From NCBI GenBank assembly GCA_013316055.1, contig WSNM01000008.1, positions 1-38,467 on the forward strand: a DNA stretch of 38,467 nucleotides. The letters run 5' to 3'. Position numbers and translations under genes: made by a program. Below the pieces are notes generated by a model that saw nothing but the letters and a program-made list of their open reading frames with translations, was not told the origin of the DNA and did no database searches. Shown here one piece after another: positions 15,053 to 38,467 of this stretch (its first letter is position 1; every line of letters begins with the position of its first letter). The stretch comes from Clostridia bacterium. Its GTDB lineage: Bacteria; Bacillota; Clostridia; Christensenellales; Borkfalkiaceae.

Positions 15053-16438
15053 TTATTTCTTATTGCGAAGGTAAGCCTTCGTCTTGCGTATAGCCTGAAT
15101 CAACGGCCGCTTTGCGGGACAGATATACTCGCACGCGCCACATTCAATGCAGTATGCGGTATTGCCGTATTTCGCCGCCGCCTCGAAGTCGCCCGCCGCA
15201 GAATAAAATGCGGTGTTCATAGGCATAAGGTGCATAGGGCAAACGTCCGCGCATTTTCCGCAGTTAAGGCAGGGAGTAGGCTCTTCCGCCGCCGCCTCGC
15301 TCTTGTTCAAAAGCAGTATGCCCGAGGTGGTTTTGTGGGTATAACAGTCGTAGTCCGCCAGCGCAACGCCCGTCATAGGCCCGCCCTGAACAACCTTTTT
15401 AACGGTGGACTTTTCCGTAACCAGATTTTCGGAAGTTGCCGTCTTGTTTTTAACGTCGATTTTAACCGTTTGCAAATCTTTTTCAATAATTTGCTCAGTA
15501 ACTTCGCCGCCGCAGTAATCTATAATCGACTGCACCGGAGTACCGACGCGCACCCAAAGATTTTTTGGCTGCTTAACAGCCTTGCCGGAAACGGTTACAA
15601 CCCTTTCGTAAAGCGGCTTGCCCTGTTCGACTGCTTCGCAAACGGCAAAGCACGTTGCAACGTTCTGCACGGTAATACCGTAGTCCGCGGGCAGCCTTCC
15701 ATGCCCTATTCTTTTGCCCGTTGTAATGTATGCAAGCTGTTTTTCGCCGCCCGTAGGGTATTTTTTAGCCAGCTTTACAACCTTTATATCCTCGTACGGC
15801 TCGAATTTGGCAATACAGTCGGGCTTGTTGACCTCGATACCGATAATAATGCTTGTTACGCCCAAAGCCCTTGCAACGTAACGCGCGCCGCGCACAATTT
15901 CGTCCGTGCGTTCAAGCATAAGACGGTGGTCGCACGTTAAATACGGCTCGCATTCGGCGCCGTTTACAATCAGCGTGTCAACCTGCGTCTTGGGCGCAAC
16001 CTTGACCGCCGTGGGGAAGCCCGCGCCGCCAAGCCCTACAATGCCGCAGTCGCGTATGCGCGCCTTGATTGCTTCCGCGTCCGGCTCGGTAAGCGGGGGA
16101 AGGTAAGCCTTTTCGTCCTTACCGTCGGATTTTATAAAAATAAAGCTTTCGATAGCTCCGTTTGCTGCGGTAAGCTCCTTAATTTCCGTAACCGTGCCGC
16201 TTACGCTTGCAAAAACGTCGGAGGAAATTGCGCCGTCCGATTTTGCGATAAGCTCGCCGCATTTTACCGTTTGACCCGCTTTGACTATCGGCTCGGCGGG
16301 CTTGCCGAGCGACTGCGCGCAGGATACGGCTACCTCTTCGGGCAAGGGCATTACTTCCGTAGGGCAGTCCTGCGCAAGCTCTTTTCCGCCGCGCGGGTGC
16401 ACGCCGCCGAAGTAGTATCTACCTTTTACTGCTTTCAC
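15053..16438 (-). CDS. rnfC: Rnf complex subunit RnfC (NADH/FMN and iron-sulfur)
   Basis: RnfC (461 residues) is the peripheral NAD(H)-binding subunit. The flavin/NADH-binding region shows GLGGAGFPTAVK near residue 135, with NGAECEPYL about 30 residues later. Two C-terminal ferredoxin motifs follow: CLNCGKCADVCPMH (from about residue 390) and CIECGACEYICPAKRP (from about 430). It is the first gene of rnfCDGEAB. It starts with GTG preceded by AAAGGAGA at good spacing; no ATG gives a full-length protein. Upstream lies a 223-base gap occupied mostly by a structured repeat. Confidence 0.96.
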   Translation of the reverse strand: MKAVKGRYYFGGVHPRGGKELAQDCPTEVMPLPEEVAVSCAQSLGKPAEPIVKAGQTVKCGELIAKSDGAISSDVFASVSGTVTEIKELTAANGAIESFIFIKSDGKDEKAYLPPLTEPDAEAIKARIRDCGIVGLGGAGFPTAVKVAPKTQVDTLIVNGAECEPYLTCDHRLMLERTDEIVRGARYVARALGVTSIIIGIEVNKPDCIAKFEPYEDIKVVKLAKKYPTGGEKQLAYITTGKRIGHGRLPADYGITVQNVATCFAVCEAVEQGKPLYERVVTVSGKAVKQPKNLWVRVGTPVQSIIDYCGGEVTEQIIEKDLQTVKIDVKNKTATSENLVTEKSTVKKVVQGGPMTGVALADYDCYTHKTTSGILLLNKSEAAAEEPTPCLNCGKCADVCPMHLMPMNTAFYSAAGDFEAAAKYGNTAYCIECGACEYICPAKRPLIQAIRKTKAYLRNKK

Positions 16439-16463: not shown

Positions 16464-16652
16464 TTCACAAAAATTTCGGCAAGCCGTTGCCTGCGATTTT
16501 TCGTGATTTAAAGGGCTACTCGCCCTCGCGGTTGCAATGTGTTTGCATCCACGAATTTATAATTGCAACCGCTCGCCTCGCTGAGGTGCAGTCTTGCACA
16601 AATTGGGGTGCGCAGCGCAAAAACGGGGTTTTGCTTGCGCCGTTAAATTATT
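16464..16652. repeat. 189-bp multi-hairpin dispersed repeat, copy 1
   Basis: This element fills the gap between the Gx gene and rnfC and is colinear with 25336-25524. Hairpins in order: CACAAAAAT...ATTTTTCGTG enclosing GGCAA/TTGCC, then GGGC/GCCC, an 11-bp GCGGTTGCAAT/ATTGCAACCGC stem (16528-16538 with 16562-16572, loop 23), GTGCA/TGCAC, and CAAAAC/GTTTTG. It encodes no plausible protein. Its orientation is antisense to the rnf operon. Confidence 0.85.
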
Positions 16653-16661
16653 AAAAACGTT

Positions 16662-17219
16662 TTAGCGTCCGTTTTCCTTTTTTAAAATTACTTTTTCAAA
16701 TATGTTCATGGGAACGCCCTTAACCAACAGCATTGTAATGCCGCCGACTACCGCGCCGGCGATTATGCCCAAAAGCACCAGATAGGGCAGGTTGACGAAC
16801 ATCAGCACCGACCCCGAAAGTAATGCAAAAACTGCGTTCTGCGTAACGTTGTGCGCAACCGCCGCCGCTACCGAAACGGCAAAAACCGAAATTTTGGGAT
16901 ACGCGATATACATCAGCACGGAGGAAACCGCCATTGAAACGATTCCGCCGGAAAAGCTGTATAAAAGCGCGGAAACATTGCCCGCGTATACTGCGCCGAG
17001 CACGGTGCGCAGCGCGACCACAATAAACGCCTCTATCGGGGAATACATAATAAGCGCGGCAAACGAAAAAACGTTGGCAAGACCGGGCTTTGCGCCGGGA
17101 ATTATCAGCGTGGGGAAAAGACCTTCTATTAAAAAAGTGATAAGGCTTAAGCCCGTAAGCAGGGCAAGCACCGCCGTTTTTTTTGCGGCAAATCTGCTAC
17201 GTTGTTCTTTCGTCGTCAT
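16662..17219 (-). CDS. Gx transporter family protein (Hpre_diP_synt_I type membrane protein)
   Basis: This 185-residue integral membrane protein has about five hydrophobic helices and the motif IIPGAKPGLANV, typical of the family annotated as Gx transporter or heptaprenyl diphosphate synthase component I. These genes recur beside ApbE, NusG-II and Rnf genes in Clostridia. A role in flavin, quinone or precursor supply has been suggested, and the synthase label is doubtful because no catalytic Asp-rich motif is seen. It is transcribed toward rnfC from a promoter only 9 bases upstream, so its mRNA is almost leaderless. Co-transcription with rnf across the 223-base repeat gap is likely but unproven. 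Confidence 0.8.
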   Translation of the reverse strand: MTTKEQRSRFAAKKTAVLALLTGLSLITFLIEGLFPTLIIPGAKPGLANVFSFAALIMYSPIEAFIVVALRTVLGAVYAGNVSALLYSFSGGIVSMAVSSVLMYIAYPKISVFAVSVAAAVAHNVTQNAVFALLSGSVLMFVNLPYLVLLGIIAGAVVGGITMLLVKGVPMNIFEKVILKKENGR

Positions 17220-17412: not shown

Positions 17413-18786
17413 ATGGATTTGAAATACACGCGTAAAAACGTATATAAGGAGGCGGACGGCGCGCAGCTTGAAGCTATTTACGATTTTGCGGAAGGCTATA
17501 AAAGGTTTTTGGACAGCTCTAAAACAGAGCGCGACGCGGCAATAACCGCCCAAAGGCTTGCGGAGGAGAACGGCTTTAAGCCCTTCTCGTTTTCGGAGAA
17601 ATTAAAGGCGGGTGACAAGCGCTATTTTATCAACCGCCACAAAAACGTGTTTTTGATAAGAGTAGGCAAGGAGGACGTTGCAAAGCACGGCGTACGCATA
17701 ATGGTTGCGCACGTTGACAGCCCGCGCCTCGATTTAAAGCCCAACCCCATGTACGAGGACAGCGGTCTGTGCTATCTTAAAACGCATTACTATGGCGGAA
17801 TTAAAAAATACCAATGGACGGCTATACCCCTTGCACTGCACGGCGTTGTAGTGCTGCGCGGCGGCGAGCGCGTGGAAATCTGCGTGGGCGAGGACGAGGA
17901 CGACCCCGTATTCTATATTACCGATATTCTGCCCCACCTCGGCGCGGAGCAGAGCGCAAAGCCCCTTGCAAAGGCGATTGACGGAGAGAGCCTTAACGCG
18001 GTAATAGGCGGGCTTCCCGCAGTTTCCGAGGACGGAGAAGAGGATAAGGAGGCGGTTAAAACCGCTGTGTTGAAGCTTTTGAACCAGAAGTACGGAATTA
18101 CCGAGGTTGATTTGCAGTGCTCGGAGCTGTGCTTTGTGCCCGCGGGCAAGGCGCGCGACGTCGGCTTTGACAGAACGCTTATCTCTGCATACGGTCACGA
18201 CGACAAGGTCTGCGCCTATCCCGAAATGCGCGCGATTTTCGACTGCGACAGCCCGCATACCATGATTGCGGTGTTTGCCGATAAGGAGGAGGTCGGCTCC
18301 GACGGCACTACGGGTATGCAAAGCAAGGTTATCTGCGACGTGATTGATACCGTTGCGGCGTCCTTTAACGCTAACCCTATCGAGGTAAGATATAACTCGA
18401 AGTGCATTTCCGCAGACGTTACCGCGGCATACGACCCCGCATATGCTTCGGTTTTTGAAAAACGCAACACAACCTTTGTGTCCTGCGGGGCGGCGGTTTC
18501 CAAATACACGGGCTCCCGCGGGAAGTCGTCGACAAACGACGCCTCTGCCGAGTTTATGGGCTTTATCCGTGATATTTTCGATAACGGAAACGCAATCTGG
18601 CAGGTCGGCGAGCTTGGCGCGGTTGACGTAGGCGGCGGCGGTACGGTTGCAAAATATATTGCAAACCTCGGCATAGATACGGTTGACGTGGGCGTTCCCG
18701 TGCTTTCTATGCACGCCCCTTACGAGCTGATTTCCAAGGCGGACGTTTACTCGCTGTATCTTGCGTGCCTTGCCTTCTGCAAATAA
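17413..18786 (+). CDS. M18 family aminopeptidase
   Basis: This 457-residue cytosolic metallopeptidase removes N-terminal, typically acidic, residues from peptides. M18 landmarks are in order: MVAHVDSPRLDLKPNP (metal-ligand His), HYYGGIKKYQW, AYGHDDKVCAYPE (metal-ligand Asp), ADKEEVGSDGTTGMQS (catalytic Glu pair) and SMHAPYELISKADVYS (C-terminal metal His). The start at 17413 follows AAAGGAG. An upstream in-frame ATG at 17347 falls inside the promoter and is rejected. The gene is monocistronic, with a consensus promoter and a strong terminator. Confidence 0.94.
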   Translation: MDLKYTRKNVYKEADGAQLEAIYDFAEGYKRFLDSSKTERDAAITAQRLAEENGFKPFSFSEKLKAGDKRYFINRHKNVFLIRVGKEDVAKHGVRIMVAHVDSPRLDLKPNPMYEDSGLCYLKTHYYGGIKKYQWTAIPLALHGVVVLRGGERVEICVGEDEDDPVFYITDILPHLGAEQSAKPLAKAIDGESLNAVIGGLPAVSEDGEEDKEAVKTAVLKLLNQKYGITEVDLQCSELCFVPAGKARDVGFDRTLISAYGHDDKVCAYPEMRAIFDCDSPHTMIAVFADKEEVGSDGTTGMQSKVICDVIDTVAASFNANPIEVRYNSKCISADVTAAYDPAYASVFEKRNTTFVSCGAAVSKYTGSRGKSSTNDASAEFMGFIRDIFDNGNAIWQVGELGAVDVGGGGTVAKYIANLGIDTVDVGVPVLSMHAPYELISKADVYSLYLACLAFCK

Positions 18787-18808
18787 TATAAAGTGCGATA
18801 AAATATAC

Positions 18809-18841
18809 CGCGCCCCGCGGGCATAAAGCCCGCGGGGCGCG
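18809..18841. terminator. Bidirectional terminator after the M18 gene
   Basis: A perfect 14-bp stem (CGCGCCCCGCGGGC with its complement, loop ATAAA) is followed by TTTTC. It also lies just past the stop of the converging minus-strand gene. Confidence 0.85.
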
Positions 18842-18862
18842 TTTTCTATCAATCAAACAATA

Positions 18863-24742: not shown

Positions 24743-25333
24743 ATGGAAAAGAATACGCTTGTTCCCTATATTGTCGAGCAGACCTCGCGCGGGGAACGTT
24801 CCTACGATATTTACAGCCGCCTTTTGGAGGACAGAATAATCTTTTTAAGCGGCGAGATAGACGACGCCGTTGCAAACACGGTAGTGGCACAGCTGATTTA
24901 CCTCGAAGCGAAGGACCCCGCAAAGGACATTTCGCTTTATATCAACAGCCCCGGCGGCTCGGTTTCCGCGGGACTTGCCATTTACGACACTATGAACTAT
25001 GTAAAGTGCGACGTTTCCACCATTTGCATAGGTATGGCGGCTTCGATGGGTGCGTTCTTGCTTTCCAGCGGACAAAAGGGCAAGCGCTACGCCCTGCCCA
25101 ACAGCGAAATTATGATTCATCAACCCCTCGGCGGCGCTCAGGGTCAGGCAAGCGATATAAAAATCGCCGCCGAGCATATTTTAAAGACCAAGCGCAAGCT
25201 TAACGCCATACTGTCGCAGAATTCGGGCAAGCCCGTAGAGCAGGTAGAGCGCGATACCGACCGCGACAACTATCTTTCCGCACAGGAGGCGATGGAGTAC
25301 GGCTTAATCGACAAGGTTTTTTATAAGAGGTAA
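24743..25333 (+). CDS. clpP: ATP-dependent Clp protease proteolytic subunit
   Basis: ClpP (196 residues) forms the tetradecameric peptidase chamber. The triad is visible: Ser101 in [11 protein letters not shown], His126 in [13 protein letters not shown], Asp171 in [11 protein letters not shown]. Length and spacing are typical. AAGGAG precedes the ATG, and tig ends 52 bases upstream. A 189-bp structured repeat begins 3 bases after the stop and separates it from clpX. Confidence 0.97.
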
Positions 25334-25335
25334 GG

Positions 25336-25524
25336 TTCACAAAAATCTCGGCAAGCGGTTGCCTGCGATTTTTCGTGATTTTAGGGCTACTCGCCCTCGC
25401 GGTTGCAATGCCAAGTGCCCACGAATAATATTATTGCAACCGCTCACCCCGCCGAGGTTGCTGACCGCAACAAATGGGGTCTGCTTGCAAAAAGCGTGGT
25501 TTTTGCGCGCAACGTAAAATTATT
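25336..25524. repeat. 189-bp multi-hairpin dispersed repeat, copy 2
   Basis: This copy fills the clpP-clpX gap, ends 6 bases before the clpX ribosome binding site and lies in the sense direction of that operon. It matches copy 1 (16464-16652) end to end with the same length. The 11-bp stem (25399-25409 with 25433-25443) and its 23-base loop length are conserved while the loop sequence differs. GTTGC/GCAAC replaces GTGCA/TGCAC of copy 1, and GCAAAAA/TTTTTGC forms the last hairpin. Confidence 0.85.
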
Positions 25525-25542: not shown

Positions 25543-26763
25543 TTGAAAGACCAGAAATATTGTTCATTCTGCGGTAAACCCGAGGAATTCGTAAAAAAGC
25601 TTATAACGGGAAAAAACGGCGCGTGTATATGCGACGAATGTATAGTAATCTGCGGTGATATGGTTAAGGAGGCGGACGCGGGTGCGGCGGAGCAGGTTCC
25701 CCTTAAAACCCCCGCCGAAATCAAAAGCGAGCTCGATAAATATATAGTCGGTCAGCACGAGGCGAAGAAGGTGCTTTCCGTTGCGGTTTATAACCACTAT
25801 AAGCGTATAAACAACCTTAACCAAAGCTCGCTTGACAACGACGTGGAAATCGAGAAAAGCAATATTCTTCTGCTCGGCCCTACTGGCTGCGGCAAAACCC
25901 TGCTTGCAAGGACGCTTGCCAAAATTTTAAACGTGCCCTTTGCCGCGGCGGACGCGACAACGCTTACCGAGGCAGGCTACGTCGGCGAGGACGTCGAAAA
26001 TATTTTATTAAAGCTTATCCAGAATGCCGACTTCGATATTGCAAAGGCTCAGCGCGGCATAATTTATATCGATGAAATAGATAAAATCGCAAGGAAGAGC
26101 GAAAACGTTTCCATAACCCGCGACGTTTCGGGCGAGGGCGTACAGCAGGCTCTTTTGAAGATTATAGAAAGCACGGTCGCAAACGTACCCCCGCAGGGCG
26201 GCAGAAAGCACCCCCAGCAGGAGTGCCTTAGGATAGACACCACAAATATACTTTTTATTTGCGGCGGCGCGTTTGTCGGGCTTGACAAAATAATACAAAA
26301 GCGCAAGGACAGCACCTCGCTCGGCTTCGGCGGTAACGTAAAGCCCGCGGAGGATAACGCGGAAATGCTTGAGGACGTAAAGCCTCAGGATTTGACCAAA
26401 TTTGGGCTTATACCCGAGTTTGTTGGTCGTGTGCCCATTGTCGTAAGCCTGCACCCCCTGAATGAGGACGCGCTTGTCAACATTCTCACACAGCCCAAAA
26501 ACGCGATTATCAAGCAGTATCAGAAGCTTATTGCTATGGACGGCGTAAAGCTGACCGTGGAGGACGGCGCCGTGCGCGAGATTGCCAACACCGCAATCCG
26601 CTTAAAGACGGGCGCAAGGGGACTTAGAACTATTATCGAAAGCTTTATGACCTCGGTAATGTACAAGCTCCCTTCTGAAAAGAATATAGAAGAGGTTATC
26701 GTCACCCGCGAATGCGTAACCGACAAGGCGGAGCCGAAGATAATTTACAAGCGCACCGCTTGA
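25543..26763 (+). CDS. clpX: ATP-dependent Clp protease ATP-binding subunit ClpX
   Basis: ClpX (406 residues) unfolds substrates and feeds ClpP. The N-terminal zinc-binding domain shows CSFCGK and CICDEC. The AAA+ module has Walker A GPTGCGKT, Walker [11 protein letters not shown], the GYVGED pore loop and a ClpP-docking loop around SLGFGGNV. The likely start is the TTG at 25543, since GGAG lies 8 bases before it and the zinc finger follows directly. An ATG at 25474 would add 23 residues coded by the repeat element and is rejected. A TTG start may limit translation. Confidence 0.94.
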
Positions 26764-36786: not shown

Positions 36787-36821
36787 ATATTAAGGCTGCA
36801 ACAGGCGTTATCCGCACTATA

Positions 36822-36843
36822 TTGCGCGGGTAATGGGCTTGCA
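36822..36843. repeat. 22-bp direct repeat, left copy
   Basis: Identical to 38446-38467 at the right edge. Read on the plus strand in frame it encodes IARVMGL, which lines up codon for codon with part of the 55-residue gene family (LAYIAGL), so it looks like a gene fragment. A TAA at 36791 and no start codon precede it. Confidence 0.6.
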
Positions 36844-38421: not shown

Positions 38422-38467
38422 AAAAGATTACGGACGAGCAGTATCTTGCGCGGGTAATGGGCTTGCA
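38422..38467 (+). pseudogene. Partial copy of the 55 aa small gene, running off the window edge
   Basis: Reading from 38424 gives KITDEQYLARVMGL, matching residues 8-22 of the 55-residue protein (KKITDEQYLAYIAGL). The first 28 bases are identical to its coding strand. A TAA stands immediately upstream in frame (38421-38423) and no start codon is available, so this is a degenerate or truncated copy. The final 22 bases repeat 36822-36843 exactly. The remainder lies outside the window. Confidence 0.55.

Follow-up and report, generated by a model that had tools for sequence, protein, structure and literature searches.

A five-hairpin repeat dispersed through a clostridial genus is probably a mobile element whose hairpins may be recognised as folded DNA

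Two 189-nt segments of a 38,467-nt stretch of Clostridia bacterium DNA (the whole of which we call the window) are, with a probability that we put at roughly 0.78, copies of a genus-limited, dispersed, short and non-autonomous mobile DNA repeat with hairpins that would be recognised as folded DNA. That this five-hairpin element is a mobile repeat is, from the comparison of genomes, very probable, and we think it likely to be a small DNA parasite. The evidence comes from the number and distribution of its copies, from gaps between the same genes that carry it in one species and lack it in relatives, and from base pairing that persists through extensive sequence change with little preference for either strand.

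The two segments had been described from the letters alone as equal in length and colinear, with five hairpins in the same order, and alignment and folding confirmed this. They span 189 nt apiece at 80% identity (E 6e-37), and folding predicts five hairpins in the same order in both (z-scores against shuffles of -3.15 to -3.54). As also described, the 11-bp stem GCGGTTGCAAT/ATTGCAACCGC is invariant between the copies while its 23-nt loop differs, hairpin 4 retains its pairing with different arms (GTGCA/TGCAC versus GTTGC/GCAAC), and hairpin 5 is rebuilt. Copy 1 is antisense to rnfC and to the Hpre_diP_synt_I gene on its other side, and copy 2 lies between clpP and clpX and is sense to both, in agreement with the orientation first reported. 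The clpX start is likely the TTG at 25543, where we placed it because the longest-ORF start, at 25474, falls inside the element. Beyond these two copies, the next match in the window to a 122-position model of the element had an E value of 0.34. Across the family, the hairpin 3 loop has conserved letters, AAGNGC..CAC..ATTATATA, and among the copies listed hairpin 1 usually retains the extra C in its 3' arm. Copies from genome G072 (L270–L285) have a G+C content of 31–47%, mostly below 42%, compared with about 50% in most other sampled genomes, and their fold is unchanged.

Table 1 Positions of the two copies of the five-hairpin element, their hairpins and neighbouring features in the window.
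Feature	Position	Strand	Remarks
rnfC	15053..16438	-	
Copy 1, whole element	16464..16652	+	blastn, alignment
Copy 1, hairpin 1	16465..16506		TCAC...GTGA base, extra C in 3' arm; A-tract / GC stem / T-tract
Copy 1, hairpin 2	16512..16526		GGGC-TACTC-GCCC core
Copy 1, hairpin 3	16528..16572		11-bp stem, 23-nt loop
Copy 1, hairpin 4	16586..16599		GTGCA/TGCAC
Copy 1, hairpin 5	16610..16640		followed by conserved right end ..AATTATT (to 16652)
Hpre_diP_synt_I gene	16662..17219	-	
372-aa ORF	17734..18852	-	TTG start; beside rnf genes
clpP	24743..25333	+	
Copy 2, whole element	25336..25524	+	blastn, alignment
Copy 2, hairpin 1	25337..25378		terminator-like, both strands
Copy 2, hairpin 2	25383..25397		
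Copy 2, hairpin 3	25399..25443		11-bp stem as in copy 1, other 23-nt loop
Copy 2, hairpin 4	25457..25471		GTTGC/GCAAC
Copy 2, hairpin 5	25482..25511		followed by right end ..AATTATT (to 25524)
30-nt direct repeat, first copy	36814..36843		93% (pair)
30-nt direct repeat, second copy	38438..38467		exactly at contig end

Two further features of the window are recorded in Table 1: a 30-nt direct repeat, and a 372-aa ORF that has no Pfam match and overlaps a 479-aa ORF on the opposite strand. In the RnfC protein of the window, about 30 residues (315–344) are skipped by the alignments in most relatives, and only four relatives align over the whole length in one piece.

Searching the source genome and its relatives by blastn, as had been proposed, did find further copies, so the segments belong to a dispersed family. 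In the assembly from which the window comes (1.2 Mb in 71 contigs, 81% complete), copy 1 had six matches and copy 2 eight, and 23 of 61 genomes (own included) had a match, all of one genus. A covariance model trained on 20 copies and covering the first 122 positions matched 80 of 93 genomes of the genus (E <= 0.01; no more than 38 candidates scored in any genome); six genomes for which 150 candidates each were scored gave 24, 24, 53, 56, 66 and 68 matches at E <= 1e-6. In an order-wide sample (14 candidates scored per genome), seven of 248 genomes matched at E <= 1e-5, all within the genus, and none outside it; the 248 took in at least eight genomes of the genus and at least ten of other genera in the family, with 221 further rows lacking a match. 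An exact pattern scan of titled genomes returned 22 stretches, of which the six with species names were all Candidatus Coproplasma and the remaining 16 were titled uncultured Clostridia bacterium; from these names we infer that the searched genus is Coproplasma. Phage and plasmid collections gave no blastn match to the element, and viral contigs no match to its exact loop pattern. The outcome, raised at the outset, that it would be identified as a known insertion-derived element did not materialise, as none was recognised, and the top-ranked literature matches hold no description of a five-hairpin repeat family, which apparently has not been described before.

Relatives lacking the element in one or other of the two gaps, the empty sites that the original prediction had suggested looking for, were found. 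A model scan detected the full element in two of 30 clpP–clpX gaps, in forward orientation in the window's own genome (G000; gap of 212 bp) and inverted in G009 (ClpP 94% identical; gap of 339 bp, in which it adjoins another repeat), the two other hits of the scan at these loci falling outside the gap. The corresponding gaps in G004, G005, G093 and G008 (ClpP 93–95% identical) are element-free and measure 29, 42, 30 and 33 bp, and that of G110 (ClpP 95% identical) measures 78 bp, also without the element. In G006 and G014 the gaps exceed 500 bp and contain no element by model scan; viewed at their ends they resemble hairpin 1, and they are apparently filled by other repeats. For the rnfC gap, 30 loci were taken, and among the 27 with both genes located the element was present in G000 only; the gaps of the 26 relatives measured span 21–296 bp and all lack it. 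At species resolution, both window copies look like lineage-specific insertions. The evidence for movement is this presence and absence between species, and the mobile palindromic element, first proposed alongside a structure active on either strand, gains support because copies are many and spread genus-wide, both gaps are element-free in relatives, and opposite orientations occur in the one clpP–clpX gap.

Other repeats occur at the same sites. One dispersed repeat of about 120–130 bp with inverted ends, AAACGCATATAAGCGTCGC...CGCTTCTCTGCGTTT, lies in the G009 clpP–clpX gap (L186), seems also to fill the clpP–clpX gaps of G010, G020 and G092, and at several loci of G101, G107 and G108 (for example L112, L118, L148 and L152) apparently has the five-hairpin element inside it. 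In G035, the five-hairpin element appears just upstream of clpP (L194, 2177–2300) and not in the clpP–clpX gap.

Pairing is retained among copies whose sequences have diverged widely. RNAalifold, applied to 20 copies collected by blastn only and before any structure model, predicted 33 pairs, 26 of them with double changes; neither of the two outcomes that had been named as speaking against the original prediction, a lack of further copies or of covarying pairs, occurred (80 of 93 genomes; 26 of 33 pairs). When 204 non-redundant copies (elements more than 93% identical removed first) were aligned with MAFFT alone, 4930 of 5245 cells were Watson–Crick, against 21–36% with the partner slid by 1–3 columns, in a set of which most later copies came from a pairing-aware model that favours paired copies. 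In 173 of 202 rows hairpin 3 is perfectly palindromic over 10 bp; 46 different arms occur, several of them within one genome, and mid-stem variants of hairpin 1 within G002 alone include ATAA/TTAT, GCCG/CGGC, TCCG/CGGA, TTAG/CTAA and ATCG/CGAT. Hairpins 4 and 5 also covary across 95 full-length copies; 139 of 234 copies were left out because no right end could be recognised in them, as were five lying near a sequence end.

RNA structure tolerates G–U pairs on the transcribed strand, and the other strand then reads A–C. In hairpin 3, G–T and A–C cells number 9 and 16 (of 2029), and in hairpin 2 they number 2 and 12 (of 610), whereas the RNase P RNA of this genus, taken from 28 genomes, treated alike and with one partial match (L318) left out, has 269 and 16 (of 2967). 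Two counts run against our preferred reading: the outer stem of hairpin 1 has 26 G–T versus 13 A–C cells of 2215, and hairpins 4 and 5 summed have 17 versus 4 of 746, with 10 of the 17 in one pair. In the 26-pair count, one hairpin 1 tip pair holds 92 of the 133 G–T cells, and without that pair G–T cells number 41 and A–C cells 59 of 5055. The G–T excess in hairpins 1, 4 and 5 is small, on the forward strand and far below that of RNase P, and pairing shows strand symmetry in the hairpin that varies most and something close to it across the element. Such symmetry fits hairpins that matter, or are repaired, as DNA, and we consider it probable that pairing is maintained at the DNA rather than the RNA level, having lowered this estimate because of the 17 versus 4 in hairpins 4 and 5. 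The earlier argument for selection on structure holds in that Watson–Crick pairing outlives large sequence change; the near-absence of wobble in hairpins 1–3 is DNA-like and departs from usual RNA covariation.

These counts bear on whether the element could instead be a structured cis-regulatory or processing RNA, such as an attenuator, a riboswitch-like leader or an operon spacer, in the transcript of a neighbouring gene. Five conserved hairpins, the conserved letters of the hairpin 3 loop, the small G–T excess in hairpins 1, 4 and 5 and the terminator-like hairpin 1 would all suit such an RNA, as would position, the element often lying directly after stop codons or beside, frequently right before, Shine–Dalgarno sites. 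Where a left gene of 100 aa or more points at the element, the outer edge of hairpin 1 falls within 8 nt of the stop codon in 34 of 55 cases; on the other strand it comes within 30 nt of a start codon in 42 of 66, although 8 of these 42 have an offset of -4 and probably reflect a GTG inside the element chosen by the ORF caller; at the right edge, the spacing to genes is looser. Orientation relative to genes, however, is about even: for 153 elements, flanking genes were co-directional in 44 and 41 cases, convergent in 27, divergent in 25 and missing on one side in 16, as judged by simple ORF calls of at least 60 aa, some surely spurious, and with 19 of 172 elements that had no detectable hairpin 3 left out. 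The copy in the G009 clpP–clpX gap is inverted, relatives lack the element in the same gaps, G–T is no commoner than A–C in hairpins 2 and 3, unlike in RNase P, and an Rfam scan of the window found no family at gathering score. A regulatory RNA is very unlikely because pairing is near strand-symmetric, orientation is even and gaps are element-free, and on wobble counts, orientation and element-free gaps we rejected it.

Hairpin 1 may nonetheless affect its neighbours. Terminator scoring picks it out on either strand of each window copy (three found per region, against 0.6 and 0.4 in shuffles), and it probably acts, as a side effect, as a bidirectional terminator or mRNA-end stabiliser; from its positions ahead of rnfC and in the clpP–clpX gap, it could reduce the expression of genes downstream.

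If the element is a mobile repeat, one candidate class is the classical MITE, which derives by deletion from a DDE insertion sequence and has terminal inverted repeats. The element resembles MITEs in size, copy number and dispersal, in its intergenic position and in its lineage-specific insertions with element-free sites in relatives, and rve transposases occur in 7 of 16 element-bearing genomes searched versus 1 of 10 element-free ones. Its ends differ from those of a MITE: there is no terminal inverted repeat, the left end TTCACAAAAAT (TTCAC) and the right end ..AATTATT not being inverted matches. Target-site duplications, which the original prediction had suggested looking for, showed no excess over chance for lengths of 2–8 bases when 72 elements were compared at their annotated ends; in a few the right end is misplaced, and shifted ends were counted without an expectation. 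DDE_Tnp_1 was over the cut-off in only three of 61 genomes (G025, G070 and G071), all without an element match, and rve is missing in 9 of the 16 element-bearing genomes. We therefore regard a classical MITE as unlikely.

Less probable still is a REP/REPIN-type palindrome mobilised by RAYT, a Y1 tyrosine transposase, for which the odds are very low. The absence of visible terminal inverted repeats and target-site duplications suits this class, and Y1_Tnp is present in 18 of 61 genomes (the drafts being incomplete), including some that bear the element, such as G028, G063, G076, G086 and G102. REPs and REPINs, too, are high-copy intergenic palindromes that keep their outer parts conserved while the hairpin arms and spacer change in a compensatory way (PMC3733652, PMC3116915). 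The same sources associate REPs and REPINs with a GTAG or CGTC tag and a Y1 transposase (PMC3733652, PMC3116915). Neither mark characterises the five-hairpin element: GTAG stands at the end of 6 of 221 left flanks, where shuffled columns predict 1.35, and CGTC at none, and Y1_Tnp was not found in the incomplete drafts of G000 or of the copy-rich G002, G006, G014, G016, G024, G030, G035, G062 and G072. Nor was any replication-strand bias seen, with 48 of 86 elements in one orientation and 38 in the other relative to the G-rich strand (windows of 13–20 kb). Folded-single-strand transposons often have such a bias, so its absence counts against transposition of that kind. Neighbouring copies on one contig had the same orientation in 15 cases and opposite orientations in 8 (p 0.21).

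No candidate mobiliser tracks the element. IS110 was over the cut-off in one of 61 genomes, and G000, G002, G006, G030, G035 and G062 had no match to Y1, IS110, DDE_Tnp_1 or rve; in these incomplete drafts, the occurrence of Y1/RAYT, IS110, DDE_Tnp_1 and rve does not follow that of the element, and we rejected all four. Like the lack of terminal inverted repeats, of target-site duplications and of strand bias, this counts against our preferred reading. We also searched by pattern for a parent element, one in which an ORF separates hairpin 1 from the right end, in 40 sequences, the window and 39 others; nothing convincing appeared among 70 of the 113 hairpin 1 rows without a matched right end. 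Under our preferred reading of a mobile repeat recognised as folded DNA, the hairpins, single-stranded or as cruciforms, would be the substrate of a putative enzyme supplied in trans; that such an enzyme recognises them has, in our estimate, an even chance.

Mismatches between arms might disappear when one arm serves as the template for rewriting the other, known as quasipalindrome template switching, or alternatively through selection that favours some active copies over others. Mutation by template switching from one palindrome arm to the other has been described (PMC8794818). In the network of hairpin 3 arms, single-pair steps make up 39 of 45 edges, so wholesale rewriting of arms is not needed there, and transversion-type pair changes (26 of 43 in the element versus 29 of 63 in RNase P) are not clearly above the comparison. 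Because this excess is weak and single-pair steps dominate, we infer rather than observe template switching in the element. A version with no dedicated transposase, in which host replication spreads and rewrites the hairpins by template switching and so keeps palindromes perfect while they drift, with many 'alleles' per genome, is a little less probable than a classical MITE.

It is also unlikely, and slightly more so, that the element is not mobile as a unit and consists of ordinary bidirectional terminators or spacers, produced and reshuffled as hairpin modules recombined. Terminator-like hairpin 1, second copies of hairpin 1 beside the right end (among the copies listed), part-matches to hairpin 1 alone and different combinations of hairpin modules in G002 copies would all fit shuffling; against it, unrelated loci show the five hairpins in one order and with sharp left edges, and the whole unit sits in a clpP–clpX gap that is bare in close relatives. 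At L008, L010, L101 and L119, the second hairpin 1 after the right end matches the first of that locus (tandem or LTR-like), hairpin 1 itself differing between loci, and at L100, L102, L126 and L133 the second copy differs from the first. At L031, L037, L126, L254 and L256, hairpin 1 or 2 is broken by other repeats, of which one starts TCCC.. and another reads TTCTCGCGCGGCGAGCGGTATAGTAC; they look as though they insert at hairpin tips.

The mobile repeat that we favour has counterparts in other bacteria. The pneumococcal BOX, RUP and SPRITE repeats, with 125, 110 and 30 copies in one genome, are described as short, hairpin-forming, dispersed, taxonomically narrow and thought to be parasitic (PMC3049150), and the five-hairpin element is likewise short, hairpin-forming, dispersed and of narrow taxonomic range. 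In the same study BOX is modular and SPRITE terminator-like, as hairpin 1 is here, whereas BOX (compared by description) and RUP have terminal inverted repeats and make target-site duplications (PMC3049150), neither of which we saw. The bcr1–bcr18 repeats of Bacillus cereus are tied to TTTAT motifs (PMC6542083); TTTAT ends 1 of 221 left flanks of the five-hairpin element, and TTTATTATT is found in 8 of 72 right ends. The five-hairpin element further differs from BOX, RUP and SPRITE in its unrelated host and in having five separate hairpins in fixed order. Cyanobacterial small dispersed repeats are very small palindromic mobile repeats of about 20–30 bp whose mobiliser is not known, compared with 189 bp and five hairpins here.

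The element thus works like BOX, bcr1 and REPIN, yet lacks the tested marks of classical MITEs (terminal inverted repeats and target-site duplications) and of REPs (the tag and Y1 transposase). It is apparently a multi-hairpin, non-autonomous, genus-restricted mobile repeat, of a kind already known but of a new family, and it extends what is known of a large uncultured genus by a repeat family apparently not described before. It also provides a cautionary case, in that strong covariation, normally read as structured RNA, is here nearly strand-symmetric; counting G–T against A–C cells costs little and helps to tell palindromes in DNA from structured RNA. Should there be no transposase, the family would be a natural test of the maintenance of palindromes by template switching.
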